In this document: positions 1-13,266 of the stretch, one piece after another
How positions within the stretch are numbered: position 1 is the stretch's first letter
Layout: each line of letters opens with the position of its first letter
Assembly: GCF_001425665.1 (NCBI RefSeq)
Contig: NZ_LMCX01000001.1
Coordinates: 714,623-778,622 of the forward strand
DNA: 64,000 nt
Reading direction: 5' to 3'
Source of the DNA: Yonghaparkia sp. Root332
GTDB lineage: Bacteria; Actinomycetota; Actinomycetes; Actinomycetales; Microbacteriaceae
Translations under genes and position numbers: made by a program
Notes under the pieces: generated by a model
What the model was told of the DNA's origin: nothing
What the model saw: only the letters and a program-made list of their open reading frames with translations
Databases searched by the model: none

Positions 1-29
1 GTAGCACCGGCCCGAACCTAGGCGCCTTC

Positions 30-2147
30 ATGATCCCGCTGCTCTCCGTTCGAGACCTCGTCACCACGTTCCACACTTCCGATGGCCCTGTTCAGGCGGT
101 GAGAGGAGTCTCATTCGATCTGTCTGCGGGCGAGACACTCGCCATCGTGGGCGAGTCCGGGTCGGGCAAGTCGGTCACAGCGACCTCACTCATGAATATG
201 GTGCGTGCGCCCGGCCGCATCGAGAGCGGGTCGATCACGTTCAAGGGGGTCGATGTTCTCGCGAAGTCGCGAGACGAGCTCCGCCAGATGCGGGGGGCCG
301 CGATGAGCATGATCTTCCAGGACCCTGTGGCAGCCCTCGACCCCCTGATGCGTATTCGGGATCAGCTGGGCGAGGCGATCAGAGCCCATAGCGCGATCTC
401 CGCGTCGGCGGCCAACGCGCGGGCGATCGAGCTCATGCATCAGGTCGGAATCCCCGATCCGGAGGCACGGCTGCGTGACTATCCGCTCGCCTTCAGCGGG
501 GGGATGTCGCAGCGGGTCATGATCGCCATGGCACTGGCCAATGATCCCGAGGTCATCATCGCCGACGAGCCCACCACCGCACTCGACGTGACGGTCCAGG
601 CCCAGATCTTGGACGTTCTCGACACACTCAACCGCGACCGCGGCACCGCTGTCATCCTGATCACCCACAACCTCGGTGTCGTCGCCCAGCTCTGCCAGCG
701 CGTCGCGGTGATGTACGGCGGAAAGATCGTCGAGACCGGGCCGACCGCCGAGGTGTTCGCGAACCCTCAGCACCCGTACACGCGCGACCTGCTGGCCGCG
801 ACGCCCAAGCTCTCGCAGCCGCGCGACGTGCCCCTCGTCGCGATCTCGGGTCGCCCGCCGACGATGCGCGAGCCCATCATCGGATGCTCGTACGCTCCGC
901 GCGATCCCCTCGCTGTTGCTCGATGCTTCGTCGAGGCACCCGCTCTGGAACCCGGCGAAGGAGCGCGGCGCCACGCATGCTGGGTGAGCGACGGCACGAC
1001 GTCGCTGCCACCGCGCCCCGAGCTGGGACTCGAGATCGACCAGGCGCCGAGGGCAGCCGCGCCCCGTGGCGCTGCGCTTCTGCAGGTTGCGGATCTCACC
1101 AAGCAGTTCGACGGCCCGCGCGCGCGCGCGTTCGGGCGCAGGCAGCAGGTTCGAGCCGTCGACGGCGTAACGTTCGATGTCCATCAGGGCGAGACGCTCG
1201 GCCTCGTGGGCGAGTCAGGGTGCGGGAAGTCCACGATCGCGAAGCTCGTGCTCGGGGTCGAGTCGCCCACCGGCGGCTCGATCCGATATGCCGGCCAGGA
1301 TTCCACCGTGCTCAGTGCCGCCGCACGGCGCCGGTACAACCGCAATGTGCAGATCGTCTTCCAGAATCCGATGTCGGCTCTGAACCCGCGACGAACCGTG
1401 GGGAGCATGCTGTCCGAGCCGCTGGCGCTTCAAGGGATGCGCGGCCAGGAGTTGCGCGACCGCAGAGACGCTCTGCTCGAACTCGTCGGCATGGATGCGT
1501 CGATCGCCAATCGGTTCCCGCACGAGTTCTCGGGCGGGCAGCGCCAGCGTCTCGTCATCGCGCGCGCCTTGGCGGTCGACCCGCAGCTCATCGTCTGCGA
1601 TGAGGCAGTCGCAGCTCTTGACGTGTCGCTACAGGCGCAGATCATCAACCTGCTGAAGGAGCTGCAGACCAGGCTCGGGCTGTCCTACTTGTTCATCGGA
1701 CACGATCTCGCCACCGTCCGTCACATCGCCGACCGGATCATGGTCATGTATCTCGGTCAGATCGTCGAGCAGGGCACTGCCGAGCAGGTGACCGGCAATC
1801 CTCAGCACCCCTACACGGTGAGCCTGCTCTCCGCTGTGCCGGATCCGGACCCGTCTGCGCTGTCGCGACAACGCGTGATCCTGCAAGGAGAAGTGCCCAC
1901 ACCGTTGAACCCGCCGAGCGGATGCCGATTCCACACGAGGTGCCCGATCGGCCCCACCATGCGCACCGACCGAGAGATCTGCCGCACGGAGAAGCCGACT
2001 GCCGATCCGGAGGCCGAGCATGGGGTCGCCTGCCACTTCGCCGGCGAGTTCACCCTCGTCGGCTCCGGCTCGTCTGCACCGATCTCGGCCGATGTGCCGC
2101 ACGGACTCGGGCCCGTTCGCCAGACCACGAGGAAGACGCTCCAGTGA
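30..2147 (+). CDS. Fused two-domain ABC transporter ATPase, Dpp/Opp type
   Basis: ATP-hydrolysing subunit of an oligopeptide/oligosaccharide importer, with the DppD-like and DppF-like halves fused in one 705-residue chain. Walker A motifs are GESGSGKS at residues 41-48 and GESGCGKS at about 394-401. Each half has a signature motif (FSGGMSQR, FSGGQRQR) and a Walker B followed by DE. Each half also ends in the oligopeptide/dipeptide C-terminal segment around HPYT, and the second half carries a Cys-rich C-terminal part. The permeases and binding protein would lie upstream of the window. The stop overlaps the GTG of the sulfatase gene by 4 nt (GTGA), so the two are translationally coupled. Family members carry peptides, but several Opp-type systems in plant- or algae-associated bacteria import oligosaccharides, and the neighbours suggest that here. 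Family call very sure; substrate inferred. Confidence 0.9.
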   Translation: MIPLLSVRDLVTTFHTSDGPVQAVRGVSFDLSAGETLAIVGESGSGKSVTATSLMNMVRAPGRIESGSITFKGVDVLAKSRDELRQMRGAAMSMIFQDPVAALDPLMRIRDQLGEAIRAHSAISASAANARAIELMHQVGIPDPEARLRDYPLAFSGGMSQRVMIAMALANDPEVIIADEPTTALDVTVQAQILDVLDTLNRDRGTAVILITHNLGVVAQLCQRVAVMYGGKIVETGPTAEVFANPQHPYTRDLLAATPKLSQPRDVPLVAISGRPPTMREPIIGCSYAPRDPLAVARCFVEAPALEPGEGARRHACWVSDGTTSLPPRPELGLEIDQAPRAAAPRGAALLQVADLTKQFDGPRARAFGRRQQVRAVDGVTFDVHQGETLGLVGESGCGKSTIAKLVLGVESPTGGSIRYAGQDSTVLSAAARRRYNRNVQIVFQNPMSALNPRRTVGSMLSEPLALQGMRGQELRDRRDALLELVGMDASIANRFPHEFSGGQRQRLVIARALAVDPQLIVCDEAVAALDVSLQAQIINLLKELQTRLGLSYLFIGHDLATVRHIADRIMVMYLGQIVEQGTAEQVTGNPQHPYTVSLLSAVPDPDPSALSRQRVILQGEVPTPLNPPSGCRFHTRCPIGPTMRTDREICRTEKPTADPEAEHGVACHFAGEFTLVGSGSSAPISADVPHGLGPVRQTTRKTLQ

Positions 2148-3595
2148 CTCCATCCAATGTTCTGCTCATCATGTGCGATCAGTTGCGCGCAGACGCTATC
2201 GGCGCCTACGGCGGCACCATCGTTCCCACTCCGAACATGGATCGGCTCGCTCGGGAAGGGGCCCGATACACGTCGGCCTACACGGCGTCTCCCGTCTGCG
2301 TGCCGTCACGCGCATCCCTGATCACCGGCAACGAGCCGCAGACCAATGCGTGCTACGAGAACGAGATGCCGATGCCCGACACCTCGACGGTCATGGATCT
2401 GCTCACCGACGCCGGGTACGTCACTCACGGGGTGGGGAAGATGCACTTCACGCCCGACGGCCAGGAACTTCGAGGCTTCGTCTCACGCGATACGGGCGAG
2501 GAATTCGGAACCGTCGACGATGACGACTATCTCGCGTATCTAGAGGAGGTCGGGTTCGGTTACGTCGAGCATCCTCACGGACTCCGAGACGAGATGTACT
2601 ACATCCCGCAGTTGTCTCCGGTTCCGGAGGAGCATCACTTTTCGCACTGGGTCGCGGACCGCTCCATTGCCTTCATCGAGGAACGCGACGACGACGCGCC
2701 GTTCTTCCTCTGGTCGAGCTTCATCGCGCCGCACCCGCCATTCGCTCCGCCGGCGCCATGGCACCGCCGTCTCGCCCCCTCTTTGCTCCCCGAGCCGTTC
2801 GAGCCGCAGGGCGGGGAAGCCCTCATGACGGTGTACAACCGCCTCCAGGAGCGCTACAAGTATCGCGATGGCGGACGCGATCGCCGGCTCCTGCAACTGA
2901 TCCGTGCGTACTACTACGCGTCGGTGGCGCACGTCGATGCGCAGATCGGCCGTATCCTCACGGAGCTCGACGACCGCGGCCTCGCCGAGAGCACACTCGT
3001 GATCCTGACCGCGGACCACGGCGAGTTCCTGGGCGACTATGGAACCTTCGGCAAGCGGAGCTTCCTCGATGCGGCCGCGCGAGTGCCGTTGCTCGTTCGC
3101 GGCCCTGGCTTCGTCGCCGGCTCGGTCGTCCAATCTCCTGTGAGCCTCATCGACGTGTACCCGACGATCGCCGCGGCCGCGGGAAAGTCGGCCGAACGCG
3201 AAGGACTGTCGCTCGCCGACCCCCTCAACGACCGCCACGTCTACGGCCAGTACCAGGCTGGGGTGATGGGCATGTACGCAGTCATCACGCCACTGTGGAA
3301 GTACATCTGGTCCGCGCCGGATCAGCGGGAAATCCTGATCGACAGGCGAAGCGGTAAGGAATCCATGAACTTGGCGTACAACGTCCGCACGCGAGCGACG
3401 CTCGAGCAGCTGCGGGCCGAGGCGTGCGAGCATTTCGCCGATCTCGCCGACGTCGATTTCGACGCCCTGTCGAGCAACGTGACCTTGCGGCTGGGCGCGC
3501 CGGCCGATGCCCGAGGGCTCGCCGCCCTGGCCTCGCTCGAGCTCGATCCCGACGCGGCGACGCTCGTGGTCCGGGAATCCTGGGACGGTGAGTGA
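2144..3595 (+). CDS. Sulfatase, formylglycine-dependent (type I, alkaline phosphatase superfamily)
   Basis: Hydrolyses a sulfate ester. The start is a GTG overlapping the previous stop (GTGA), giving 483 residues that begin TPSNVLLIMCDQ, the usual N-terminus of type I sulfatases. The metal site is visible as D12 and Q13 near the start and as the TADHGEF block (Asp, His). The activation motif is CVPSR at residues 52-56, in which Cys52 must be oxidised to formylglycine. There is no signal peptide, so the enzyme is cytosolic and should act on imported sulfated oligosaccharides rather than on polymer. Its activator is encoded about 1.3 kb downstream on the opposite strand, and a GH43-like glycosidase follows with a 1-nt overlap. 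The exact substrate cannot be read from sequence; a sulfated sugar fits the neighbouring rhamnose pathway better than choline sulfate or an aryl sulfate. Confidence 0.9.
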   Translation: MTPSNVLLIMCDQLRADAIGAYGGTIVPTPNMDRLAREGARYTSAYTASPVCVPSRASLITGNEPQTNACYENEMPMPDTSTVMDLLTDAGYVTHGVGKMHFTPDGQELRGFVSRDTGEEFGTVDDDDYLAYLEEVGFGYVEHPHGLRDEMYYIPQLSPVPEEHHFSHWVADRSIAFIEERDDDAPFFLWSSFIAPHPPFAPPAPWHRRLAPSLLPEPFEPQGGEALMTVYNRLQERYKYRDGGRDRRLLQLIRAYYYASVAHVDAQIGRILTELDDRGLAESTLVILTADHGEFLGDYGTFGKRSFLDAAARVPLLVRGPGFVAGSVVQSPVSLIDVYPTIAAAAGKSAEREGLSLADPLNDRHVYGQYQAGVMGMYAVITPLWKYIWSAPDQREILIDRRSGKESMNLAYNVRTRATLEQLRAEACEHFADLADVDFDALSSNVTLRLGAPADARGLAALASLELDPDAATLVVRESWDGE

Positions 3596-4902
3596 TGTCG
3601 GGTAACCCCGTCATCCCGAACCAGGGAGTGAACGACCCGCACATCCGCATCTTCGGCGACACCGCGTACCTGTACGCATCGCACGATCTGTCCCCGTCAA
3701 ACGACTCGTTCGTGATGGCGGATTGGCAGGTGTGGAGCTCGCTCGACTTGGTGCACTGGCAGCATGCTTCGACACTCTCGCCCGACGATACGTACTTGCG
3801 CGGAGCGGTGGAGTTCACGTCAGCCTGGGCTACCGACGCCGCCGAGAAAGATGGTCGGTACTTCTGGTATTTCTCCGAGGGGGATGCCCGGGTCGGCGTC
3901 GTCGCCGGTCCGACGCCGGTGGGCCCCTGGTCTGACCCCCTGGGCGCTCCCCTTCTCGCGGAGGGGCTCACATCGACTCAGCACTACGACCCCGGCATCT
4001 TCAGCGAGGGCGGTCGGCGGTACATCGTGTTCGGTGCCTGGGACTACTTCATCGCCGAGCTCGGCGAGGACATGGTCTCCCTGGCCGAGCCGCCGCGTCA
4101 GCTGCGCATCCAGGATGCGCAGGGACCGTACACGTACGCGGAGGGCAGTCCTTTCGAGGGCAGGGGCACGGACGACAAGCCGTTCCTGCACCGCGAAGGC
4201 GACCTGTACTACCTGTCGTGGGGTGCCTTCTATGCGACGTCACTCGCGCTGTTCGGGCCGTACACGTATCGCGGTTGCGTGATCGACGACTCGAGCTTCC
4301 CGACCGGCCTCGACCAGCCGACGTGGCCTCTCGGGCCCGCGCAGGGTCGCCATGGCTCGTTCTTCTCCTGGCACGGGCAGACCTACTTCGCCTACTGCGA
4401 CATCTCGCAAACCGGCAACCGCTACTTCCGAGACACGTTCATCAGCTACGTCCACTACCGGTCTGACGGCACGATCGCGCCGATCCGCGTCGATCTGACC
4501 GGGGTCGGCCGGTACGAGGCCCGCCGGGGTCGCATCCGCGCCGCGGAGTACTTCCGAGTGCTCGGCGCCGAAAAGCTCCAGCTCGATCGGCACACTGACG
4601 ACTTCGTGGTGATGGGGTGTCACGGGACGGACGCGCGTGTGGAGTTCCCCAACATCGAGGGCCTCCTCGGGTCGACTTCCGTGGCGATCGGCGCGGCTGG
4701 CACTCCCCGGGCTTCGGCCGACGTCATCCTCTCGCGCCGTAGCGATGACGGAACGATCGCTCGGGGCGCCGTGATGCTCGATGAGGAGGGACTGGCCGAG
4801 CTCACTCTGGCGGTCGAGCCACTCGACGACCTCGAGAGCATCGTGGTCCGGTGGACTCCGGCTGGCGGGTCAGTCGGGATCGATTGGCTGCATTTCCACT
4901 GA
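3595..4902 (+). CDS. Glycoside hydrolase family 43-like enzyme with C-terminal CBM6-like domain
   Basis: Probable beta-xylosidase or alpha-L-arabinofuranosidase-type glycosidase of 435 residues. The N-terminal three quarters resemble a five-bladed GH43 propeller: NDPH near residue 14 (expected catalytic base Asp), YDPGIF, and an EGSPFE...KPFLH block where the family keeps its acid Glu. From IRAAEYF onward the sequence resembles a CBM6-type beta-sandwich, ending in the typical DWLHFH. No signal peptide is seen, so it should be cytosolic. ATG at 3595 overlaps the sulfatase TGA by one base; a GTG one codon earlier is an alternative. The 3' end overlaps the convergent activator gene by 33 nt. Fold family fairly sure, substrate unknown; xylose or arabinose linked to sulfated sugar is the contextual guess. 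Confidence 0.75.
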   Translation: MSGNPVIPNQGVNDPHIRIFGDTAYLYASHDLSPSNDSFVMADWQVWSSLDLVHWQHASTLSPDDTYLRGAVEFTSAWATDAAEKDGRYFWYFSEGDARVGVVAGPTPVGPWSDPLGAPLLAEGLTSTQHYDPGIFSEGGRRYIVFGAWDYFIAELGEDMVSLAEPPRQLRIQDAQGPYTYAEGSPFEGRGTDDKPFLHREGDLYYLSWGAFYATSLALFGPYTYRGCVIDDSSFPTGLDQPTWPLGPAQGRHGSFFSWHGQTYFAYCDISQTGNRYFRDTFISYVHYRSDGTIAPIRVDLTGVGRYEARRGRIRAAEYFRVLGAEKLQLDRHTDDFVVMGCHGTDARVEFPNIEGLLGSTSVAIGAAGTPRASADVILSRRSDDGTIARGAVMLDEEGLAELTLAVEPLDDLESIVVRWTPAGGSVGIDWLHFH

Positions 4903-5937
4903 AGCTCGGGAGCCCATGGCGCCGGACACCGCGACGGTTCTGAATCCCGTATTGGCCGTGGACGAGTCCGGAGTGTTGTGAGTGCGCGCCGAGTTGCGGT
5001 AGCGATTGCAGTACGAGTCATGGCACAGGTAGCTTCCGCCTCGCAGCACGCGGGTGTCGCCGGAAGTCGGGCCCTGCGGATCACGATCGGGGCTGTATCG
5101 GTAGTACGAAGCATCGAACCGGTCGGCGCACCACTCCCAGACGTTGCCGACCGTCTGCCATAGACCGTAGCCGTTCGGGGCGTAGGCCTTCACGGGCGCC
5201 GTCGTGATGAATCCATCGTCGGAGGTGTTCGTCACCGGGAAGTCACCTTGCCAGATGTTGGCTCGCCACCGCCCGCCCTCGTCGGGAGGCTGGTCGCCCC
5301 ACGGGTATCTGGACGCGTCGAGGCCTCCGCGAGACGCGTACTCCCACTCCGCTTCCGTCGGAAGGCGTCGACCCGCCCAGACGCAGTAGGCCGTCGCATC
5401 GTTCCACGAGACATGAACTGCGGGGTGATCCTCAAGGCCCTCGATCGACGAGCCGGAACCGCCGGGGCGGCGCCACTGCGCACCTCGGACTCCGCGCCAC
5501 CACGGAGACCCCGCGGCGACGCCCATGATGTCGACCTCGGGTGCTGAGAGAGCGAGGTGGAAGACCGCGGAGTATCCGAACACTTCGGCCTCGGTGCGGT
5601 AGCCCGTGGATTCGACGAAGGCGGCGAACGCGAGGTTCGTCACCGCTGTCGCGTCGATCGAGAAGGCGCTGAGCGCGACGGTGTGCACGGGCGATTCACC
5701 ATCCTGAAGGTTGGCGTCACCGGAGGAGTCCCCCATCGCGAACGTGCCGGCAGGGACGATCGCTTGCTCGAGATCGTGCACGCCTCCCGAGTTCTGCTCG
5801 GGCCGGGCTCGAGGGTGCCGAGTCTCGGCCCCTCCTCCTCCCACCTCAGTGCGAGCCACTCCGCACGAGCATGTCTGCTCCATGGCGATGGGGTCGTCGC
5901 CGGGCGTGGCAGATCTCGGTGGCCGCCGGGAGGTCAT
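4870..5937 (-). CDS. Formylglycine-generating enzyme (sulfatase-modifying factor)
   Basis: Oxidises the Cys of sulfatase CxPSR motifs to formylglycine using O2 and copper. The protein has 355 residues. The FGE domain starts near residue 60 (IVPAGTFAMGD) and contains the family blocks RLPTEAEWEYA, YPWG, TVGNVWEWCAD and RVLRGGSY. The two Cys in the block after RGGSY (LCHDSYCNRYRNSAR) match the copper/substrate-binding pair of aerobic FGEs. There is no signal peptide, matching a cytosolic sulfatase partner at 2144-3595. The ATG overlaps the stop of the upstream LacI gene by 4 nt, so repressor and activator share a transcript. Its first 55 residues carry an unusual CSCG stretch; a later in-frame Met at residue 19 is an alternative start. 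Confidence 0.9.
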   Translation of the reverse strand: MTSRRPPRSATPGDDPIAMEQTCSCGVARTEVGGGGAETRHPRARPEQNSGGVHDLEQAIVPAGTFAMGDSSGDANLQDGESPVHTVALSAFSIDATAVTNLAFAAFVESTGYRTEAEVFGYSAVFHLALSAPEVDIMGVAAGSPWWRGVRGAQWRRPGGSGSSIEGLEDHPAVHVSWNDATAYCVWAGRRLPTEAEWEYASRGGLDASRYPWGDQPPDEGGRWRANIWQGDFPVTNTSDDGFITTAPVKAYAPNGYGLWQTVGNVWEWCADRFDASYYRYSPDRDPQGPTSGDTRVLRGGSYLCHDSYCNRYRNSARTHNTPDSSTANTGFRTVAVSGAMGSRASVEMQPIDPD

Positions 5938-6986
5938 GACCTTGCGCCTTCGTGAGGGTCGGGCGAGTGCGACATCGTCGGTGACACTGTGCTCGATCGC
6001 ACGATGAGCTCGGGAGTGAAGACGACGTTTCTCGGGGCCAACGTGGGGTCACCGAGCTCCTCGAGCATAATCTGCAGCGCAGTCTCGCCGAGCAGTCGAC
6101 TCGGTTGCCGCACCGACGTCAAGGGCACCACCGTGGCCGACGCGAAGTCGATGTCGTCGTACCCCACAAGGGCGATGTCGTCGGGCACGCGAACCCTGCC
6201 CGTCATGACGAAGGCCTGCAGCACGCCGACCGCGAGCACGTCGTTGGCCGTGAACATGGCATCCGGGCGCTGACGCGGAGGCCGCTGGACCAGCTGCTCA
6301 CCGGCGTCCCGACCGTCGACCACCGAGAGACCGCTGGCAGTCACCACTTCGAGCGACGCCCCCGGCACCTCGGCGACGGCACGACGCGCGCCGTCGAGTC
6401 GGTCTGTGACCTGCCGGATCTCGAACTGGGCACCGAGATAGGCGATTCGACGGCGTCCGAGTTCGAGTAGGTGCTTCACCGCCAGATAGCCGCCGGCGAC
6501 GTCGTCGACGGAGACGGACGACACGCCCGTGCCTTCGCCGCTGCGGTCGACCAGCACGGCTCGCGTGCCGTGTCGCCGAAGTCGGCTGAGCCGATCGGTG
6601 ACATCCCCGATCGGCGAGATCAGCACCCCGCGAACGCGCTGCTCCTCGAAGAGATCGAGATACGCGCCTTCGCGATTCGCGTTCTCGTCGCTATTGCCCA
6701 GGATCACCGAGTGGCCCGCCAAGTCGGCGGCGTCTTCGGCGCCGCGCGCGATCTCGGCGAAGAAGGGGTTGCCGATATCGAGGACCACGAGCCCGATCGT
6801 GGTGCTGTGACCCACGCGGAGCTGACGTGCCGCGTCGTTGCGCACGAAGCCGAGCTCGTCGATCGCCCGACGAACGCGCACGCCCGTCTCAGCACTGACC
6901 AGCGCGGGACGGTTTAGCACGTTCGACACGGTGCCGACGGAGACCCCGGCGTGCCGCGCGACGTCCTTGATGCCGATCGGAGCCAT
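5934..6986 (-). CDS. LacI-family transcriptional repressor of the rhamnose/sulfated-glycan locus
   Basis: A 350-residue LacI/GalR regulator. The helix-turn-helix is at residues 6-27 (IKDVARHAGVSVGTVSNVLN) with the hinge helix near residue 53, followed by a periplasmic-binding-protein-like effector domain. It is divergent from the rhamnose genes, whose promoter carries two LacI-type operators. It is co-transcribed with the formylglycine-generating enzyme, with which it overlaps by 4 nt. The likely inducer is L-rhamnose, L-rhamnulose or an imported oligosaccharide; this is inference from position. Its own mRNA looks leaderless: TAGCCT on the minus strand ends 6 nt before the ATG. Confidence 0.93.
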   Translation of the reverse strand: MAPIGIKDVARHAGVSVGTVSNVLNRPALVSAETGVRVRRAIDELGFVRNDAARQLRVGHSTTIGLVVLDIGNPFFAEIARGAEDAADLAGHSVILGNSDENANREGAYLDLFEEQRVRGVLISPIGDVTDRLSRLRRHGTRAVLVDRSGEGTGVSSVSVDDVAGGYLAVKHLLELGRRRIAYLGAQFEIRQVTDRLDGARRAVAEVPGASLEVVTASGLSVVDGRDAGEQLVQRPPRQRPDAMFTANDVLAVGVLQAFVMTGRVRVPDDIALVGYDDIDFASATVVPLTSVRQPSRLLGETALQIMLEELGDPTLAPRNVVFTPELIVRSSTVSPTMSHSPDPHEGARS

Positions 6987-6992
6987 GCGGCC

Positions 6993-6998
6993 AGGCTA
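6993..6998 (-). promoter_or_regulatory. -10 element of the LacI gene (leaderless type)
   Basis: TAGCCT on the minus strand, with 6 nt to the ATG at 6986. Transcription would begin at or next to the start codon. I see no clear -35. An operator lies 3 bp upstream, so autoregulation is plausible. Confidence 0.5.
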
Positions 6999-7000
6999 GT

Positions 7001-7012
7001 CGAATCGATTCA
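7001..7012. promoter_or_regulatory. LacI-type operator 1
   Basis: CGAATCGATTCA contains the perfect 10-bp palindrome GAATCGATTC with the central CG typical of LacI-family sites. It sits between the repressor's own -10 and the rhamnose -35, and is 44 bp (about four helical turns) from a second similar site. Confidence 0.65.
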
Positions 7013-7013
7013 C

Positions 7014-7040
7014 TTGACGTCCGCTCGGCTCAGACATACT
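7014..7040 (+). promoter_or_regulatory. Promoter of the rhamnose operon
   Basis: TTGACG at 7014-7019 is a good -35. The -10 is CATACT at 7035-7040 (15-bp spacer) or TACTCT at 7037-7042 (17-bp spacer). The second operator begins 5 bp downstream, over the expected transcription start. Confidence 0.6.
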
Positions 7041-7044
7041 CTTG

Positions 7045-7056
7045 TGAAACGATTCA
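7045..7056. promoter_or_regulatory. LacI-type operator 2
   Basis: TGAAACGATTCA is an almost perfect 12-bp palindrome with central CG, closely similar to operator 1. Its place over the start of transcription suits repression of the rhamnose operon. Confidence 0.7.
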
Positions 7057-7088
7057 AAAACGGTCGAACAAGAGAGCGACTCCCCTTC

Positions 7089-8255
7089 ATGACGACATTC
7101 GATTCGATCGCGCCGCACCTCGAGCGTCAGGCGATCGAACTTCCCTCGTGGGCGTTCGGAAACTCGGGCACGCGATTCAGGGTCTTCACCACGCCCGGCA
7201 CTCCTCGCGACCCCTTCGAGAAGATCGCCGATGCCGCCGAGGTTCACCGTCACACGGGTCTCGCCCCGAGTGTCGCGCTGCACGTCCCCTGGGATCGCGT
7301 CGCCGACTACGAGGCGCTCGGCGCGCACGCGCAGGAGCACGGGGTTGCCCTCGGCACGATCAACTCCAACACCTTCCAGGACGAGGAGTACAAGTTCGGC
7401 TCGCTCGCCGCCTCCGACCCCGCGGCCCGCCAGCGCGCGATCGACCACCACTTCGCCTGCATCGAGGTCATGCACGCTACGGGTTCGCGCGACCTCAAGA
7501 TCTGGCTGGCCGACGGAACCAACTACCCCGGCCAGGACGACATGCGTCGCCGGCAGGACCACCTCGCCGAGAGCCTCGCCGCGATCTACGCGCGGCTCGG
7601 CGACGACCAGCGGCTCGTCCTCGAGTACAAGTTCTTCGAACCGGCGTTCTACCACACCGACGTTCCTGACTGGGGGACGGCATACGCCCAGGTGGCGGCC
7701 CTCGGCGACCGCGCGATGGTGTGCCTCGACACCGGCCACCACGCACCCGGCACGAACATCGAGTTCATCGTCATGCAGCTGCAGCGCCTGGGCAGGCTCG
7801 GCTCGTTCGACTTCAACTCGCGCTTCTACGCCGACGACGACCTCATCGTCGGCGCGGCCGATCCGTTCCAGCTCTTCCGGATCATGGTCGAGGTCGTTCG
7901 GGGCGGCGCGTACGACGAGGGCAGCGATGTCGGCTTCATGCTCGACCAGTGCCACAACGTCGAGGAGAAGATCCCGGGGCAGATCCGCAGCGTGCTCAAC
8001 GTCCAGGAGATGACGGCGCGCGCGCTGCTCGTCGATCGTGAGGCTCTCGACGCCGCCCAGCGCGCGAACGACGTCCTCGCTGCGAACGGCATCCTCATGG
8101 ACGCCTTCTACACGGATGTCCGTGCCGACCTCGCCGCCTGGCGCGAGTCGCGCGGCCTTCCCGCCGACCCCATGGCGGCGTACGCCGGGAGCGGCTACCG
8201 CGAGCGCATCGTCGCCGAGCGCGTCGGCGGCCAGCAGGCGGGGTGGGGCGCGTGA
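7089..8255 (+). CDS. rhaI: L-rhamnose isomerase
   Basis: Converts L-rhamnose to L-rhamnulose in a TIM barrel with two divalent metals. The 388-residue protein belongs to the Pseudomonas stutzeri/actinobacterial type, not the E. coli RhaA type. Metal and catalytic residues are visible in LEYKFFEPAFYHTD (Glu), CLDTGHHAPG (Asp, His) and FDFNSRFYADDD (Asp). The ATG at 7089 is chosen because the protein then starts just after the operator region; upstream in-frame codons would run through the promoter. It is the first gene of the rhamnose operon and overlaps rhaM by 4 nt. Confidence 0.93.
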   Translation: MTTFDSIAPHLERQAIELPSWAFGNSGTRFRVFTTPGTPRDPFEKIADAAEVHRHTGLAPSVALHVPWDRVADYEALGAHAQEHGVALGTINSNTFQDEEYKFGSLAASDPAARQRAIDHHFACIEVMHATGSRDLKIWLADGTNYPGQDDMRRRQDHLAESLAAIYARLGDDQRLVLEYKFFEPAFYHTDVPDWGTAYAQVAALGDRAMVCLDTGHHAPGTNIEFIVMQLQRLGRLGSFDFNSRFYADDDLIVGAADPFQLFRIMVEVVRGGAYDEGSDVGFMLDQCHNVEEKIPGQIRSVLNVQEMTARALLVDREALDAAQRANDVLAANGILMDAFYTDVRADLAAWRESRGLPADPMAAYAGSGYRERIVAERVGGQQAGWGA

Positions 8256-8593
8256 GGGTCGCCTTCCGCCTGCAGGTCCGTCCCGAGCTGCTGGACGAGT
8301 ACCGCCGCGTGCACTCTCCGGTTCGGCGCGAGATGCTCGAGACGATCGCCGCGAGCGGTCGCCGCAACTACTCGCTCTTCCTCGACGAGACCGACGGCTC
8401 GCTGTTCGGCTACTACGAGGTCGATGACGACGCGGCTGCTCAGGCGTCCCTCGCGGCGAGCCCGGTCGCCGCCGCGTGGGAGTCGGAGATGAGCCGGTTC
8501 TTCGTGAGCCTCTCCGCCCGTGCCGATCAGGCCGCGCGCCGACTGCCCGAAGTCTTCAATCTGTCCGACCAGCTGGAGGGCGCAGCCGAATGA
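8252..8593 (+). CDS. rhaM: L-rhamnose mutarotase
   Basis: Interconverts the alpha and beta anomers of L-rhamnose so that the isomerase is supplied with its preferred form. The 113-residue protein is a ferredoxin-like dimeric barrel: VAFRLQV at the start, then EYRRVHSPVRREML, YSLFLDE, LFGYYEVDD and the family's aromatic block. The GTG at 8252 overlaps the rhaI stop (GTGA); a GTG three codons earlier is possible. The gene overlaps the next one by 4 nt. Confidence 0.92.
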   Translation: MRVAFRLQVRPELLDEYRRVHSPVRREMLETIAASGRRNYSLFLDETDGSLFGYYEVDDDAAAQASLAASPVAAAWESEMSRFFVSLSARADQAARRLPEVFNLSDQLEGAAE

Positions 8594-10623
8594 CCACGAA
8601 GCACGAGCTCCTCGCCCGCAGCAACCGCCTCGGCGCCGAGCCGCACATCACCAACTACGCCGGTGGGAACACCTCCGCGAAGGGCACCGAGACCGACCCC
8701 GTGACGGGGGAGCCCGTCGAGCTGCTGTGGGTCAAGGGCTCGGGCGGCGACCTCGGCACGCTTACCGAGCAGGGCCTCGCGGTTCTGCGCCTCGACCGCA
8801 TGCGCGCGCTCGTGAACGTCTACCCGGGCGTCGACCGCGAGGACGAGATGGTCGCCGCCTTCGACTACTGCCTGCACGGCTCCGGCGGTGCGGCCCCGAG
8901 CATCGACACGGCGATGCACGGTCTGGTGGATGCGCCCCACGTCGACCACCTCCACCCCGACGCGGGCATTGCCATCGCGACCGCGGTCGACGGGCCCGCG
9001 CTCACCGCCGAGATCTTCGGCGAGAAGGTCGTCTGGGTGCCCTGGCGCCGACCCGGCTTCCAGCTCGGGCTCGACATCGCCGAGATGAAAGCCGCCAACC
9101 CGCAGGCGATCGGGTGCATCCTCGGCGGGCACGGCATCACCGCGTGGGGCGACACCTCCGATGAGTGCGAGGCGAACTCGCGCTGGATCATCGACACCGC
9201 CCAGGCCCACATCGACGAGCACGGCGCGGCCGAGCCCTTCGGTGGCGTGCGCACCGGCTTCGAGGCGATCGCTGACGAGCGCGAGCGCCGCGCGAAGGCC
9301 GCCGCCCTCGCCCCGACGATCCGCGGCCTCGCGAGCCACGACCGACCCATGGTCGGCCACTTCAGCGACGACGAGCGCGTCCTCGCCTTCCTCGCGAGCG
9401 AGAAGGCTCCCGCGCTCGCGGAGCTCGGCACGAGCTGCCCCGACCACTTCCTGCGGACCAAGGTCAGGCCGATGCTGCTCGACCTGCCGGCCGACGCGGA
9501 CGTCGAGGCGAGCATCCAGCGCTTGAGAGAACTGCACGAGCAGTACCGCGCCGACTACACCGCCTACTACCAGGCGCACGCGACCCCCGATTCGCCCGCT
9601 ATACGCGGGGCGGACCCGCTCATCGTGCTCGTGCCGGGCGTCGGCATGTTCAGCTTCGGCGCGAACAAGCAGACGGCGCGCGTCGCCGGGGAGTTCTACC
9701 TCAACGCCATCAACGTCATGCGCGGGGCTGAGGCGCTCAGCACCTACGCGCCGATCAGTGATGCCGAGAAGTTCCGCATCGAGTACTGGGCGCTCGAGGA
9801 GGCCAAGCTGCAGCGCATGCCGAAGCCGAAGAGCCATGCGACGCGCGTCGCTTTCGTGACGGGCGCGGCGAGCGGCATCGGCAAGGCCATCGCGACGCGC
9901 CTCGCCACCGAGGGCGCGTGCGTCGTCATCGCCGACCTCGATCTCGAGAAGGCGCGGGCCGCCGCCGCCGAGCTCGGCGGCACGGATGTCGCGATCGGCG
10001 TGCAGGCGAACGTCACGGATGCGGCGCAGATCGACGCGGCGCTCGCCGAGGCCGTGCTCGCGTTCGGCGGGGTCGACATCGTCGTCAACAACGCGGGCCT
10101 GTCGCTCAGCAAGCCGCTACTCGAGACGACCGAGGCCGACTGGGATCTCCAGCATGACGTCATGGCGAAGGGCTCGTTCCTCGTCGCGAAGGCGGCCGCG
10201 CGCATCCTCATCGAGCAGGGGATGGGCGGCGACGTCATATACATCTCGAGCAAGAACTCGGTGTTCGCCGGGCCCAACAACATCGCCTACTCGGCGACGA
10301 AGGCCGATCAGGCGCACCAGGTGCGGCTGCTCGCCGTCGAGCTCGGCGAGCACGGCGTGAAGGTCAACGGCATCAACCCCGACGGCGTCGTGCGTGGCTC
10401 GGGCATCTTCGCGAGCGGCTGGGGAGCCAACCGTGCGGCGACCTACGGCGTCGAGGAAGAGGATCTCGGCACGTTCTATGCGCAGCGCACGATCCTCAAG
10501 CGCGAGGTGCTGCCCGAGCACGTGGCGAACGCGGTCGCGGTGCTCACCGGGCCCGACCTCTCGCACACGACCGGTCTGCACATCCCCGTCGACGCGGGCG
10601 TCGCCGCGGCGTTCCTGCGATAG
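8590..10623 (+). CDS. Bifunctional L-rhamnulose-1-phosphate aldolase / short-chain dehydrogenase (RhaEW/YuxG type)
   Basis: A fusion of 677 residues. Residues 1 to about 400 are a class II aldolase: the zinc ligands are in HVDHLHP and in the GGHGI block. It should cleave L-rhamnulose 1-phosphate to dihydroxyacetone phosphate and L-lactaldehyde. From about residue 418 there is a Rossmann short-chain dehydrogenase (TGAASGIG nucleotide motif, NNAG, catalytic Ser in ISSKNS and YSATK), which in this fusion type oxidises the lactaldehyde to lactate. The ATG overlaps the rhaM stop by 4 nt; the kinase gene follows after 5 nt. The role follows from the family and from the surrounding isomerase, mutarotase and kinase. 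Confidence 0.92.
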   Translation: MTTKHELLARSNRLGAEPHITNYAGGNTSAKGTETDPVTGEPVELLWVKGSGGDLGTLTEQGLAVLRLDRMRALVNVYPGVDREDEMVAAFDYCLHGSGGAAPSIDTAMHGLVDAPHVDHLHPDAGIAIATAVDGPALTAEIFGEKVVWVPWRRPGFQLGLDIAEMKAANPQAIGCILGGHGITAWGDTSDECEANSRWIIDTAQAHIDEHGAAEPFGGVRTGFEAIADERERRAKAAALAPTIRGLASHDRPMVGHFSDDERVLAFLASEKAPALAELGTSCPDHFLRTKVRPMLLDLPADADVEASIQRLRELHEQYRADYTAYYQAHATPDSPAIRGADPLIVLVPGVGMFSFGANKQTARVAGEFYLNAINVMRGAEALSTYAPISDAEKFRIEYWALEEAKLQRMPKPKSHATRVAFVTGAASGIGKAIATRLATEGACVVIADLDLEKARAAAAELGGTDVAIGVQANVTDAAQIDAALAEAVLAFGGVDIVVNNAGLSLSKPLLETTEADWDLQHDVMAKGSFLVAKAAARILIEQGMGGDVIYISSKNSVFAGPNNIAYSATKADQAHQVRLLAVELGEHGVKVNGINPDGVVRGSGIFASGWGANRAATYGVEEEDLGTFYAQRTILKREVLPEHVANAVAVLTGPDLSHTTGLHIPVDAGVAAAFLR

Positions 10624-10628
10624 CCGGC

Positions 10629-12056
10629 ATGACCATCCACGTCGCCGCCGTCGACCTCGGGGCCACGAGCGGTCGCGTCATGCGCGCCGTCGTCGACGCC
10701 GGCTCGATCGACATGGTGGAGGTGGCGCGCTTCCCGAACGGCCCCGTCCAGCGCGCCGACGGCCTGCACTGGGACATCGAGGCACTGCGCGGACACATCA
10801 TGGAGGGCCTGCGTCAGGCGTTCGCCGACGACCCGCTCATCACCTCGATCGGCATCGACTCGTGGGCCGTCGACTACGCCCTCATGGCGGGGGGTCGGAT
10901 GCTCGCTGAGCCGTTCCACTACCGCGACGAGCGCACAGCCCGCGGTGTCGCGAGGGTGCACGCCGTCGTGCCGCCCGACGAGCTCTACAGCGCCTCCGGT
11001 ATCCAGCACCTGCCCTTCAACACGGTGTTCCAGCTCGCCGCCGAGTCTCCCGTGCGCCTGGCGGAGGCAGAGACGCTTCTGCTCATCCCGGATCTGGTCG
11101 CGTTCTGGCTCACCGGACACACGATCTGCGAGTCGACCAACGCCTCCACGACCGGGCTGCTCGACCCGCGCACGGGCGAGTGGAACGAGGCGCTCATCGA
11201 GCGGCTCGGGCTGCCGCGCCGGCTGCTCCCACCCCTCGTCCGACCCGGCGAGACGATCGGCGCACTCATCCCCGAGGTCGCTGCCGCGCTCGAGGCGCCC
11301 GTGGGGCTCGTGGTCACGGCCGTCGGATCCCACGACACCGCCTCGGCCGTGGTCGGCGTTCCGATGACTCGACCTGATGCCGCGTACATCAGCTGCGGCA
11401 CGTGGGGGCTCGTCGGTCTCGAGCTGGAGAATCCCGTCATCACCGATGCCGGCCGCGCGGCCAACTTCACCAATGAGGGCGGCGTCGACGGCCGAGTGCG
11501 GTTCCTCCACAACGTGATGGGGCTGTGGCTGCTGAGCGAGACGATCCGATCGTGGGAGGCCGAGTCGGGTCGCGTCGACCTCGGTCCCCTGCTCGCCGAC
11601 GCGGCGACCGTCACCCGACCGGTGCCGACCTTCGATGTCAACGACCCGCGACTCCTCGCGCCGGGCGAGATGCCGTCGCGGATCGCCGCGCTCATCACCG
11701 AGCAGGGGGATGCGGCCCCCGCCTCTCGCGCCGAGCTCGCCCGCGCGATCCTCGAAAGCCTCGCCCTCGCCTTCGCGTCGGCGGTGCGCACCGCCTCGGC
11801 GCTCGCCGACCGACCGGTGTCGGTCATCCACCTCGTCGGCGGGGGAGCGCTCAACGCCCTCCTCTGCCAGCTGACCGCTGATCGGGCCGGGATGCCCGTG
11901 CTCGCCGGCCCCGTCGAGGCGACGGCCCTCGGCAACGTGCTCGTCCAAGCTCGCGCCCAGGGCCCGCGTGGAACCCTGGAGGACGTGCGGAGGCTCGTCG
12001 CCGAGCAGTGCACGATCACGTCGTTCTCGCCGCGCCCCGTTCGCGTGACTGCGTGA
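10629..12056 (+). CDS. rhaB: Rhamnulokinase (FGGY kinase)
   Basis: Phosphorylates L-rhamnulose to L-rhamnulose 1-phosphate, the substrate of the preceding aldolase. The 475-residue FGGY kinase shows the N-terminal phosphate-binding loop VDLGATSGRVM, the catalytic-region Asp in GIDSWAVDYAL, and the C-terminal ATP-binding HLVGGGALNALLCQLTAD block. It lies 5 nt after the aldolase gene and completes the pathway. Confidence 0.92.
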   Translation: MTIHVAAVDLGATSGRVMRAVVDAGSIDMVEVARFPNGPVQRADGLHWDIEALRGHIMEGLRQAFADDPLITSIGIDSWAVDYALMAGGRMLAEPFHYRDERTARGVARVHAVVPPDELYSASGIQHLPFNTVFQLAAESPVRLAEAETLLLIPDLVAFWLTGHTICESTNASTTGLLDPRTGEWNEALIERLGLPRRLLPPLVRPGETIGALIPEVAAALEAPVGLVVTAVGSHDTASAVVGVPMTRPDAAYISCGTWGLVGLELENPVITDAGRAANFTNEGGVDGRVRFLHNVMGLWLLSETIRSWEAESGRVDLGPLLADAATVTRPVPTFDVNDPRLLAPGEMPSRIAALITEQGDAAPASRAELARAILESLALAFASAVRTASALADRPVSVIHLVGGGALNALLCQLTADRAGMPVLAGPVEATALGNVLVQARAQGPRGTLEDVRRLVAEQCTITSFSPRPVRVTA

Positions 12057-12102
12057 CTCTGCGCCTCCGCGCCTCACCCACGACACGACACGAGGAGCAG
12101 CC

Positions 12103-13149
12103 ATGCCCGTCATCCCCGCCATCGTCGCCCGATCCGCTGAGGCTCCCCTCGAGGTGGCCACGATCGAGCGCCGCGAGGTCGGCCCGCGCGACGTGCGCAT
12201 CAGCATCGAGTGGGCCGGCATCTGCCACTCCGACATCCACACCGTCCGCGGCGACTGGGGCCCGCAGCACTATCCGCTCGCGGTGGGTCACGAGATCGTC
12301 GGAACGGTCGTCGAGGTCGGCGCCGAGGTCACACGCTTCGCGGTCGGCGACCGCGCCGGCGTCGGCTGCCTCGTGAACTCCTGCGGCGAGTGCGCGAACT
12401 GCCTCGCGGGGGAGGAGCAGCACTGCGAGAACGGCTCGATCGGCACCTACGGCCAGATCGATCGCGACGGCACGGTCACGCAGGGCGGCTACTCGACCGA
12501 GATCGTCGTCACGGAGGGCTTCGTGCTGCACATCCCCGACGCCATCCCCGTCGATCGCGTCGCGCCGCTGCTGTGCGCGGGCATCACGACGTACTCGCCG
12601 CTCAAGCACTGGAAGGTCGGCCCGGGCTCGAAGGTCGCGGTCGTCGGCCTCGGCGGGCTCGGCCACATGGCGGTCAAGCTCGCCGTCGCTCTCGGCGCCG
12701 AGGTCACGGTGCTCTCGCAGTCGCTCGGCAAGCGCGAGGACGGTCTCGCGATGGGCGCGACCGACTACTACGCGACGAGCGACCCGGAGACGTTCGTCGC
12801 GCTCAAGAACCGCTTCGACGTCATCCTCAACACCGTGAGCGCGTCGATCGACCTGGACGCCTACTTCGGCCTGCTGGCTCTCAACGGCACGTTCATCAGC
12901 GTGGGTGCTCCGGGGGAGCCGATGCCGGTGACGGTCTTCAGCCTGTTCACGAACCGCCGTTCGTTCGCCGGCTCGACGATCGGCGGCATCCGCGAGACGC
13001 AGGAGATGCTGGACTTCTGCGCCGAGCACGGCGTCGCCCCGGACGTGGAGGTCATCACCGCCGACCGGGTCAACGAGGCCTGGGATCGCGTGCTCCGCTC
13101 GGATGTCCGCTACCGCTTCGTGATCGACATCGCCTCGCTCGCGGGCTGA
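12103..13149 (+). CDS. Zinc-dependent alcohol dehydrogenase, cinnamyl-alcohol/aldehyde reductase family
   Basis: NAD(P)-dependent medium-chain dehydrogenase of 348 residues. The catalytic zinc site is GICHSDIH plus GHEIVG. The structural zinc is held by a Cys cluster (CGECANC then QHC), and the nucleotide site is GLGGLGHMAVKLA. It resembles the YahK/cinnamyl alcohol dehydrogenase group, broad reductases of aldehydes. It is the last gene of the rhamnose run, preceded by a strong GAGGAG ribosome site. It may reduce L-lactaldehyde to propanediol, giving a second fate beside the fused dehydrogenase; that role is inferred from position. Confidence 0.85.
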   Translation: MPVIPAIVARSAEAPLEVATIERREVGPRDVRISIEWAGICHSDIHTVRGDWGPQHYPLAVGHEIVGTVVEVGAEVTRFAVGDRAGVGCLVNSCGECANCLAGEEQHCENGSIGTYGQIDRDGTVTQGGYSTEIVVTEGFVLHIPDAIPVDRVAPLLCAGITTYSPLKHWKVGPGSKVAVVGLGGLGHMAVKLAVALGAEVTVLSQSLGKREDGLAMGATDYYATSDPETFVALKNRFDVILNTVSASIDLDAYFGLLALNGTFISVGAPGEPMPVTVFSLFTNRRSFAGSTIGGIRETQEMLDFCAEHGVAPDVEVITADRVNEAWDRVLRSDVRYRFVIDIASLAG

Positions 13150-13254
13150 TCGAGAGCCTCGGCCCGGGCAGCGGCTCGTGCGACCGGGCGGCGACCGCCC
13201 CCGATCGCGACCGAACCGGGACCTTCGCCCCGGGCATCCTCGAACACCGCTCAT

Positions 13255-13260
13255 TAGGCT
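13255..13260 (+). promoter_or_regulatory. -10 element, leaderless type
   Basis: TAGGCT ends 6 nt before the ATG at 13267 and no ribosome site of its own is needed. Confidence 0.5.
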
Positions 13261-13266
13261 GAGGGC

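Follow-up and report, generated by a model that had tools for sequence, protein, structure and literature searches.

The stretch of DNA studied here, 64,000 nucleotides from the actinobacterium Yonghaparkia sp. Root332 (the window; G000:C1:714623-778622, in a genome of 2.63 Mb on two contigs), opens on genes for an Opp-type ATP-binding cassette (ABC) transporter, a sulfatase, a glycosidase resembling glycoside hydrolase (GH) family 43, a sulfatase activator and L-rhamnose catabolism. This cluster is two units: a cassette, made up of a LacI repressor (LacI1), the Opp transporter, the sulfatase, the GH43-like enzyme and the formylglycine-generating enzyme (FGE), and a rhamnose locus that holds that cassette. 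On the gene content and the loci of relatives, we consider it probable that this bacterium imports small sulfated rhamnose-containing sugars, such as fragments of ulvan, and dismantles them in the cytosol. An earlier proposal of cytosolic use of an imported sulfated rhamno-oligosaccharide gained from the Opp parts and from the relatives' loci, in which a polysaccharide lyase of family PL25 accompanies rhamnose genes and sulfatases; it lost the full ulvan pathway and the single unit, and its sugar cargo is a prediction.

Gene content of the cassette and the rhamnose locus

The block begins ∼6.7 kb upstream of the window and comprises three transcription units with two LacI repressors. Outside the window and divergent from the transporter genes are those for an FMN-dependent lactate-type dehydrogenase (window -6720 to -5488), a GntR regulator (-5485 to -4757) and LacI1 (-4666 to -3632). 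The transporter genes begin with a family-5 (SBP_bac_5) binding lipoprotein (-3449 to -1872; Pfam/NCBIfam family searches) and an OppB-type permease (-1800 to -850), both also outside the window, followed by an OppC-type permease (+ strand; L006:18147-19004, window -853 to 4) of which only the 3′ end (1..4) lies inside. Directly upstream as they are, these three complete an Opp-type transporter with the fused OppD-OppF type ATPase of the window (30..2147, + strand), which has two ABC_tran and two oligo_HPY domains (Pfam, NCBIfam). A family-5 binding protein with a lipoprotein-type start, two BPD_transp_1 permeases and ATPases with oligo_HPY (Pfam) are the parts of an Opp/Dpp-type importer, and the fused ATPases match the Opp/Dpp-Nik type, but here the transporter shares an operon with a sulfatase and a GH43. 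Between the binding-protein and permease genes lies a perfect 20-base palindrome, GTCGGCTCGATCGAGCCGAC (window -1846 to -1827; L006:17154-17173), which may form a hairpin that reduces transcription beyond the binding-protein gene.

The preliminary description had advised looking upstream for the permeases, the binding protein and any GH78, GH105 or lyase genes, and had held that peptidases there would count against a sugar transporter. The transporter parts were found as described above. A family search of 20 genes further upstream of or next to the transporter (the 20 kb less one small open reading frame and one gene) gave no lyase, GH78 or GH105. The sole peptidase-like match among them was an alpha/beta hydrolase (Peptidase_S9, a weak 38.6 bits, cut-off 22.6) 11 kb before the binding-protein gene and outside the block.

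The ATPase gene is followed by that of a Cys-type S1 sulfatase (2144..3595, + strand; PF00884, 164 bits), which carries the C-x-P-S-R motif of formylglycine sulfatases as CVPSR at residue 52 (nt 2297), together with the stretches MCDQLRAD, GKMHF, TADHGEF and FGKRSF; we take these five to be catalytic or metal-site positions. FGE, on the opposite strand (4870..5937, − strand, with an alternative start possible at 5781; PF03781, 273 bits), has the stretch LCHDSYC, presumably with a role in its function. By family match and motif, the cluster contains a sulfatase with its activator. The GH43-like gene lies between them (3595..4902, + strand; PF04616, 91 bits, cut-off 32). Both the sulfatase (VTPSNVLLIMCDQ..) and the GH43-like enzyme (MSGNPVIPNQGVNDP..) open straight into the catalytic domain, and by eye neither has a signal peptide, as had been noted before.

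Beyond FGE, the second repressor gene, lacI2 (5934..6986, − strand; Pfam family match), is separated from rhaI by two operator-like sites, TCGAATCGATTCAC (7000) and GTGAAACGATTCAA (7044), at 7000..7057. Four rhamnose genes follow on the + strand, encoding L-rhamnose isomerase RhaI (7089..8255; TIGR02635, 617.9 bits, cut-off 531), L-rhamnose mutarotase RhaM (8252..8593; PF05336, 84 bits), the bifunctional rhamnulose-1-phosphate aldolase/lactaldehyde dehydrogenase RhaD/aldehyde dehydrogenase (8590..10623; TIGR02632, 1013 bits, cut-off 568) and rhamnulokinase RhaB (10629..12056; FGGY Pfams). RhaI, RhaM and RhaD thus exceed the cut-offs of their models, and RhaB matches TIGR02627 as its best family at 414 bits, below the cut-off of 528. 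The seven best plasmid matches of RhaD (72–77% identity) are all in actinobacterial genera, which fits an actinobacterial host. The next gene (12103..13149, + strand) encodes a zinc alcohol dehydrogenase, Ahr-like at 302 bits (below the cut-off of 470), which by family falls outside the rhamnose genes; nothing in the 13 sister stretches matches it at more than 33% identity. Pfam and NCBIfam searches thus bore out the ATPase, sulfatase, GH43-like, activator, LacI and rhamnose genes first described, with tight overlaps verified at 2144-2147, 3595, 5934-5937, 8252-8255 and 8590-8593. The rhamnose pathway described earlier is thus present, although rhaM had been overlooked.

Relatives of the GH43-like enzyme and capacity for ulvan

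In alignment A1, D14 and D132 are invariant in 6/6 sequences and align to GH43 structures; we take them to be the catalytic base and the pKa-modulating Asp of GH43. The general-acid Glu of GH43 sits in an E-G/A motif. At the aligned place, where the structures 8HCJ and 3QED carry Glu-Gly/Ala, our enzyme has Asp-Lys (residues 194-195, in TDDKP, nt 4168-4182), as do all 6/6 sequences and four further plasmid relatives, and we therefore file it as GH43-like. The structure predicted from six sequences contains a C-terminal beta domain, confident only from about residue 305; since the mean pLDDT is 45 and only this part is confident, we make no claim on the active site from it. Judged by their residues, the sulfatase and GH43 look active save for this one GH43 position.

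A scan of genome_contigs, by a method that detects close relatives only, gave 41 pattern matches for GH43, of which 5 were confirmed; in viral_contigs, 189 pattern matches gave none. These closest relatives found (52–61% identity) come from uncultured Erythrobacter (three), Pontixanthobacter rizhaonensis (one) and an Opitutaceae metagenome-assembled genome (one). Judged by eye, the N-terminus of these relatives is longer than ours and resembles a signal peptide, though that of the Opitutaceae protein is short and ambiguous; our enzyme has no such feature. Flanks were read in three genomes, those of Pontixanthobacter and two Erythrobacter, leaving aside the third Erythrobacter (L012) and the Opitutaceae contig. 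In Pontixanthobacter, 15.6 kb separate GH43 from the gene of a protein that matches 5UAM, a PL25 ulvan lyase, at 593.6 bits. The neighbours of GH43 there are GH106, two BNR_4 proteins, a DUF5060 protein, RhaM, KduI, a sulfatase, DUF4861, TRAP genes and a LacI-like gene (tblastn), and the flanks hold RhaI, RhaD/aldehyde dehydrogenase, an FGGY kinase, an FMN dehydrogenase, two GH88/105, GH78, GH3, a second sulfatase and, as in our cassette, FGE. The two BNR_4 proteins resemble BACINT_00347 (5MUM, 138 bits) and an L-rhamnose-alpha-1,4-D-glucuronate lyase (7ESL, 116 bits), presumably GH145 and PL27, respectively. In agreement, both Erythrobacter flank sets contain PL25 homologs (74% and 78%), 16 and 14 kb from GH43, and FGE, both GH88/105, RhaI and RhaD recur in each; one of the two genomes has a second PL25 homolog (56%) nearer to GH43. 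The Pontixanthobacter region (L014, L044, L045; Sphingomonadales) is in itself a large apparent ulvan locus, mostly common to Erythrobacter.

Because the GH43 kin sit in PL25 loci with rhamnose genes, sulfatases and FGE, these loci lend independent support to a sulfated, ulvan-like rhamnose substrate. A more distant relative in Sphingobium (L028, soil source; 45% identity) lies in a row GH3-GH39-GH78-GH43, with no annotated sulfatase in the stretch, and so supports rhamnose but not sulfate. A Persicobacter sequence (L029) was considered as a further rhamnose-linked relative and set aside, its neighbours being GH28, GH97, GH116 and others with no clear rhamnose link. As read from gene neighbourhoods, the relatives' loci associate this GH43 clade with rhamnose, and with ulvan where they are of the Erythrobacter type; they do not indicate the activity of the enzyme.

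The ulvan utilization locus of Formosa agariphila, too, combines sulfatase, GH43 and rhamnose catabolism. The same holds for the loci of Pseudoalteromonas marina, where the model, in the part of the article available, places desulfation before or during hydrolysis (PMC13050008). According to the accessible text of two reports, GH43 enzymes in other ulvan systems are assigned to xylose removal (PMC9549685, PMC13050008), and GH43_10 of F. agariphila cleaves xylose off ulvan oligosaccharides (PMC9549685). The ulvan systems in the literature surveyed, as far as the sources were accessible, are from Bacteroidota and proteobacteria with outer-membrane import. Unlike these loci with their TonB-type import, our cluster has hydrolases without signal peptides and, we infer, ABC import into the cytosol. 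We found no published account of cytosolic ulvan or sulfated-rhamnoside use by actinobacteria in the partly accessible literature, a weak negative given that subscription journals were mostly outside its coverage.

A further difference from ulvan loci is that the genome gave 0 matches to GH78 (PF17389), to GH106 (PF17132) and to BNR_4 (PF15892; PL24/PL25-type ulvan lyases; PL28 and PL40 were not searched for). Among neighbourhood genes searched by family there was no GH88/GH105, for which no genome-wide search was made. The full ulvan-type pathway first suggested was therefore not borne out. By the families tested, the cell is not equipped to start on polymeric ulvan, and the lack of GH78, GH106 and BNR_4 lyase makes a scavenger of small fragments likelier than an ulvan degrader.

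Distribution of the cassette and exchange at the rhamnose locus

The two units differ in distribution. Among 26 genus genomes (19 of them ≥90% complete), the sulfatase was found in one, our own, at E ≤ 1e-40. RhaD/aldehyde dehydrogenase occurs in 11 of the 26: our own, nine near-full-length at 88–93% identity and a fragment in G311. At E ≤ 1e-40, GH43 was found in 1/299 family genomes and 1/396 phylum genomes, each time our own. The rhamnose core is thus shared within the genus, in contrast to the cassette as far as sampling goes, and by history the two are not one unit. The single coherent cluster first described thus stood as far as its genes adjoin, and gave way to three transcription units, two LacI repressors and unequal distribution among congeners. 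GC content runs from 0.646–0.669 in the cassette genes LacI1 to FGE, through 0.676 in LacI2, to 0.686–0.716 in the rhamnose genes and 0.746–0.762 in three flanking genes (window mean 0.711). This pattern agrees with a later arrival of the cassette; alone it is no proof.

Nine 20 kb stretches round sister rhamnose loci with near-full RhaD were compared. LacI2 is 62–80% identical to the sister rhamnose-locus repressor in 8/9 stretches (45% in the ninth), so that RhaI, RhaM, RhaD/aldehyde dehydrogenase, RhaB and LacI2 form the L-rhamnose isomerase pathway known from congeners, whereas the front end here is the sulfatase cassette. In six of the nine, a sugar transporter stands beside the rhamnose genes. 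Four stretches have a CUT2 transporter, in three with a binding protein matching RhaS (TIGR02637; G301 and G300 above the cut-off of 342, G303 at 328) and in G314 with no RhaS match; G310 has a CUT1 transporter and GH78, and G305 a CUT1-type permease (68.6% to its G310 counterpart), GH78 and another GH43. Of the other three, G275 has GH78 and no transporter seen in the stretch, G316 has a sugar-type binding protein that starts 6.7 kb after rhaB and is cut by the stretch end, and G074 has neither transporter nor GH78 beside its rhamnose genes in 20 kb. With these front ends (transporter, rhamnosidase or both), the cassette occupies the place that they take in most sisters, although G074 keeps this from being proof. 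RhaS had 0 matches in our genome at E ≤ 1e-20.

Without any cassette, G074 keeps the genes for the dehydrogenase, GntR, the aldo/keto reductase, LacI2 and rhamnose use together, and the aldo/keto reductase and VTT-domain genes that flank the block are 28 bases apart in G317 (alignment ends) versus 19.9 kb here. The site beside the VTT-domain gene (window 13150-13266; L081, L084, L085) varies by species, with nothing in G317, an arabinofuranosidase gene (PF06964) and a kinase-like gene (by resemblance) in G302 and G318, and, in our genome, the rhamnose block of 19.9 kb; sugar genes may be swapped in and out at this spot. By sequence likeness, the cassette is itself a mosaic, since the transporter and FGE resemble a Streptomyces module, the sulfatase one in Deinococcus and the GH43 the Erythrobacter type. 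A plasmid of Streptomyces sp. NBC_01727 has the same layout (SBP-permease-permease-ATPase-sulfatase-ROK-FGE), with transporter parts 36–48% identical (ATPase 47%) and FGE 50%, but its sulfatase is only 27% alike, ROK replaces LacI and its 20.6 kb stretch has no GH43 or rhamnose gene. Deinococcus aetherius, the best match in the plasmid collection for the sulfatase (43.5%), has a LacI-SBP-permease-permease-sulfatase row; its transporter is of the CUT1 sugar type, however, and no GH43, FGE or rhamnose genes are annotated in the stretch.

Across the phylum, the sulfatase has matches in 10/396 genomes at E ≤ 1e-45, the nine non-self at 32–38% identity. In the five of these nine whose surroundings were taken, tblastn with the cluster proteins (E ≤ 1e-10) found no rhamnose gene near the sulfatase and an Opp-type transporter adjoining it in one (L048). 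Taken by itself, the sulfatase sequence is no evidence for rhamnose. The same genome has two other rows with sulfatases. One (L008:4895-12960; G000:C2, ∼197.9-206.0 kb), of sugar type, repeats the theme of transporter and sulfatase, with a binding protein and two permeases (by resemblance), an alpha-L-arabinofuranosidase (PF06964) and a LacI regulator nearby; its sulfatase is split over two frames (9616-10008 and 9941-11131), a broken gene or a sequencing error. The other (L007:7061-14927; G000:C1, ∼1.043-1.051 Mb) has in a row ROK, ABC permease and ATPase, an NMT1-type binding protein, two sulfatases and a second FGE, and gives the impression of an operon for taking up sulfate esters, distinct from the rhamnose cluster.

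The gap between LacI1 and the binding-protein gene holds CGTTTCAATCGATTGAAACG, a perfect palindrome of 20 bases. The two sites between lacI2 and rhaI have the form of a candidate operator, GAA[A/T]CG[A/T]TTC. Six of the nine sister stretches (L073, L077, L078, L079, L080 and L082) carry this form between the same two genes or ahead of the rhamnose transporter, and L075, L076 and L083 do not. These sites suggest that two repressors act through related but different operators.

Proposed route, alternatives and meaning

In the route that we propose, other bacteria would free small sulfated oligosaccharides with rhamnose, most likely from ulvan or a comparable glycan of green algae. The family-5 lipoprotein would bind such a fragment and the Opp-type transporter import it intact. 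In the cytosol, the sulfatase, activated by FGE, would remove sulfate, and the GH43-like enzyme would split the glycosidic bond. The chemistry of the L-rhamnose isomerase pathway ends in dihydroxyacetone phosphate (DHAP) and L-lactate, so freed L-rhamnose would pass through RhaM, RhaI, RhaB and RhaD/aldehyde dehydrogenase to these products, and the upstream FMN-dependent dehydrogenase may convert lactate to pyruvate. LacI1 would control the transporter, sulfatase and GH43 genes, and LacI2 the rhamnose genes. The cassette was probably acquired and placed in a rhamnose locus where most sisters carry a sugar transporter, GH78 or both.

Several observations weigh against this route. The sulfatase has mixed relatives among structures, being distant from the ulvan sulfatase 6HR5 (98 bits) and nearer to 4UPI (159 bits) and a choline-sulfatase (152 bits), and it is only 27–34% identical to the Erythrobacter and Pontixanthobacter sulfatases. 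The GH43-like enzyme lacks the usual general-acid Glu, and with no GH78, GH106 or BNR_4 in the genome the usual ulvan oligosaccharides would be left unfinished unless it does unproven work; both Erythrobacter flank sets likewise gave no GH78. Cassette and rhamnose units are under separate repressors. In G310 and G318 the genes for the FMN dehydrogenase and GntR lie apart from those for rhamnose, which makes any tie of the two to rhamnose a loose one. Finally, given G074 without a transporter, G275 with none seen and G316 with only a distant sugar-type binding protein, the lack of a rhamnose transporter of its own is no proof that the Opp transporter feeds the pathway.

If the units were independent, the Opp transporter, sulfatase and FGE would scavenge sulfur from a sulfate ester other than a rhamnoside, and the rhamnose genes would serve free rhamnose that enters through a different carrier. 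The Streptomyces module, with its ROK regulator and neither rhamnose nor GH43 gene, would suit such a role, as would the separate LacI repressors with different operator-like palindromes and the rhamnose genes of G074 with no transporter seen beside them. The low likeness of the Streptomyces sulfatase takes some weight from that parallel, however, and the GH43 gene overlaps that of the sulfatase and has its closest kin found in ulvan-lyase loci, and the cassette sits at a locus where sugar transporters adjoin the rhamnose genes in six of nine sisters; we thus think independence unlikely. It is very unlikely that the transporter takes up peptides or metals in the ordinary way and stands in front of the sulfatase by chance. 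Its ATPase does score above the cut-off with several importer models at once, for peptides, nickel and staphylopine (NCBIfam; whole-protein scores that sum two domains), but neither the binding protein nor the two permeases attain the cut-off of any listed NCBIfam model, the ATPase and sulfatase genes overlap by 4 bases, and the coupling of transporter and sulfatase recurs in Streptomyces.

The substrate could also be a sulfated arabinogalactan-type glycan with rhamnose-glucuronate caps in place of ulvan, from which GH43 would remove arabinose or galactose. We judge this quite improbable; what speaks for it is the pair of BNR_4 genes at the relatives' locus, near BACINT_00347 and 7ESL. The Rha-alpha-1,4-GlcA linkage to which these point occurs in ulvan too, however, and the same locus holds the PL25 ulvan lyase homolog at 594 bits. 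As a precedent, Bacteroides plebeius uses wine arabinogalactan protein, with sulfate and Rha-GlcA caps, via GH145, GH43_24 and sulfatase, according to the accessible part of one article (PMC8406133).

Under the favoured route of cytosolic use of small sulfated rhamnosides, one glycoside hydrolase and one sulfatase would make xylosyl-rhamnose-sulfate the most economical substrate. A more specific form, possible but doubtful, is that the rhamnose locus of this genus is a socket for exchanged uptake and hydrolysis modules, and that the cassette placed in it here feeds on a single remnant of ulvan degraders, xylosyl-rhamnose-3-sulfate or something closely analogous. In that event, one GH43-like enzyme of the Asp-Lys clade and one sulfatase would suffice to free rhamnose, without lyase, GH105 or GH78. 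Actinobacteria would then have a pathway, fed by an Opp transporter and located in the cytosol, for scavenging sulfated rhamnosides, and the enzyme would be a new catalytic variant of GH43. Among the major products of green algae are ulvan and other sulfated glycans with rhamnose. With a scavenger of Gram-positive type that takes up their sulfated fragments intact and strips the sulfate inside the cell, the ulvan food chain would gain a further guild. The cluster would give a small, testable model of sulfoglycan use, and it would point to a GH43-like clade that marine ulvan loci carry as well. The varied front ends of this one rhamnose locus illustrate how new substrates can come within reach of a catabolic core.

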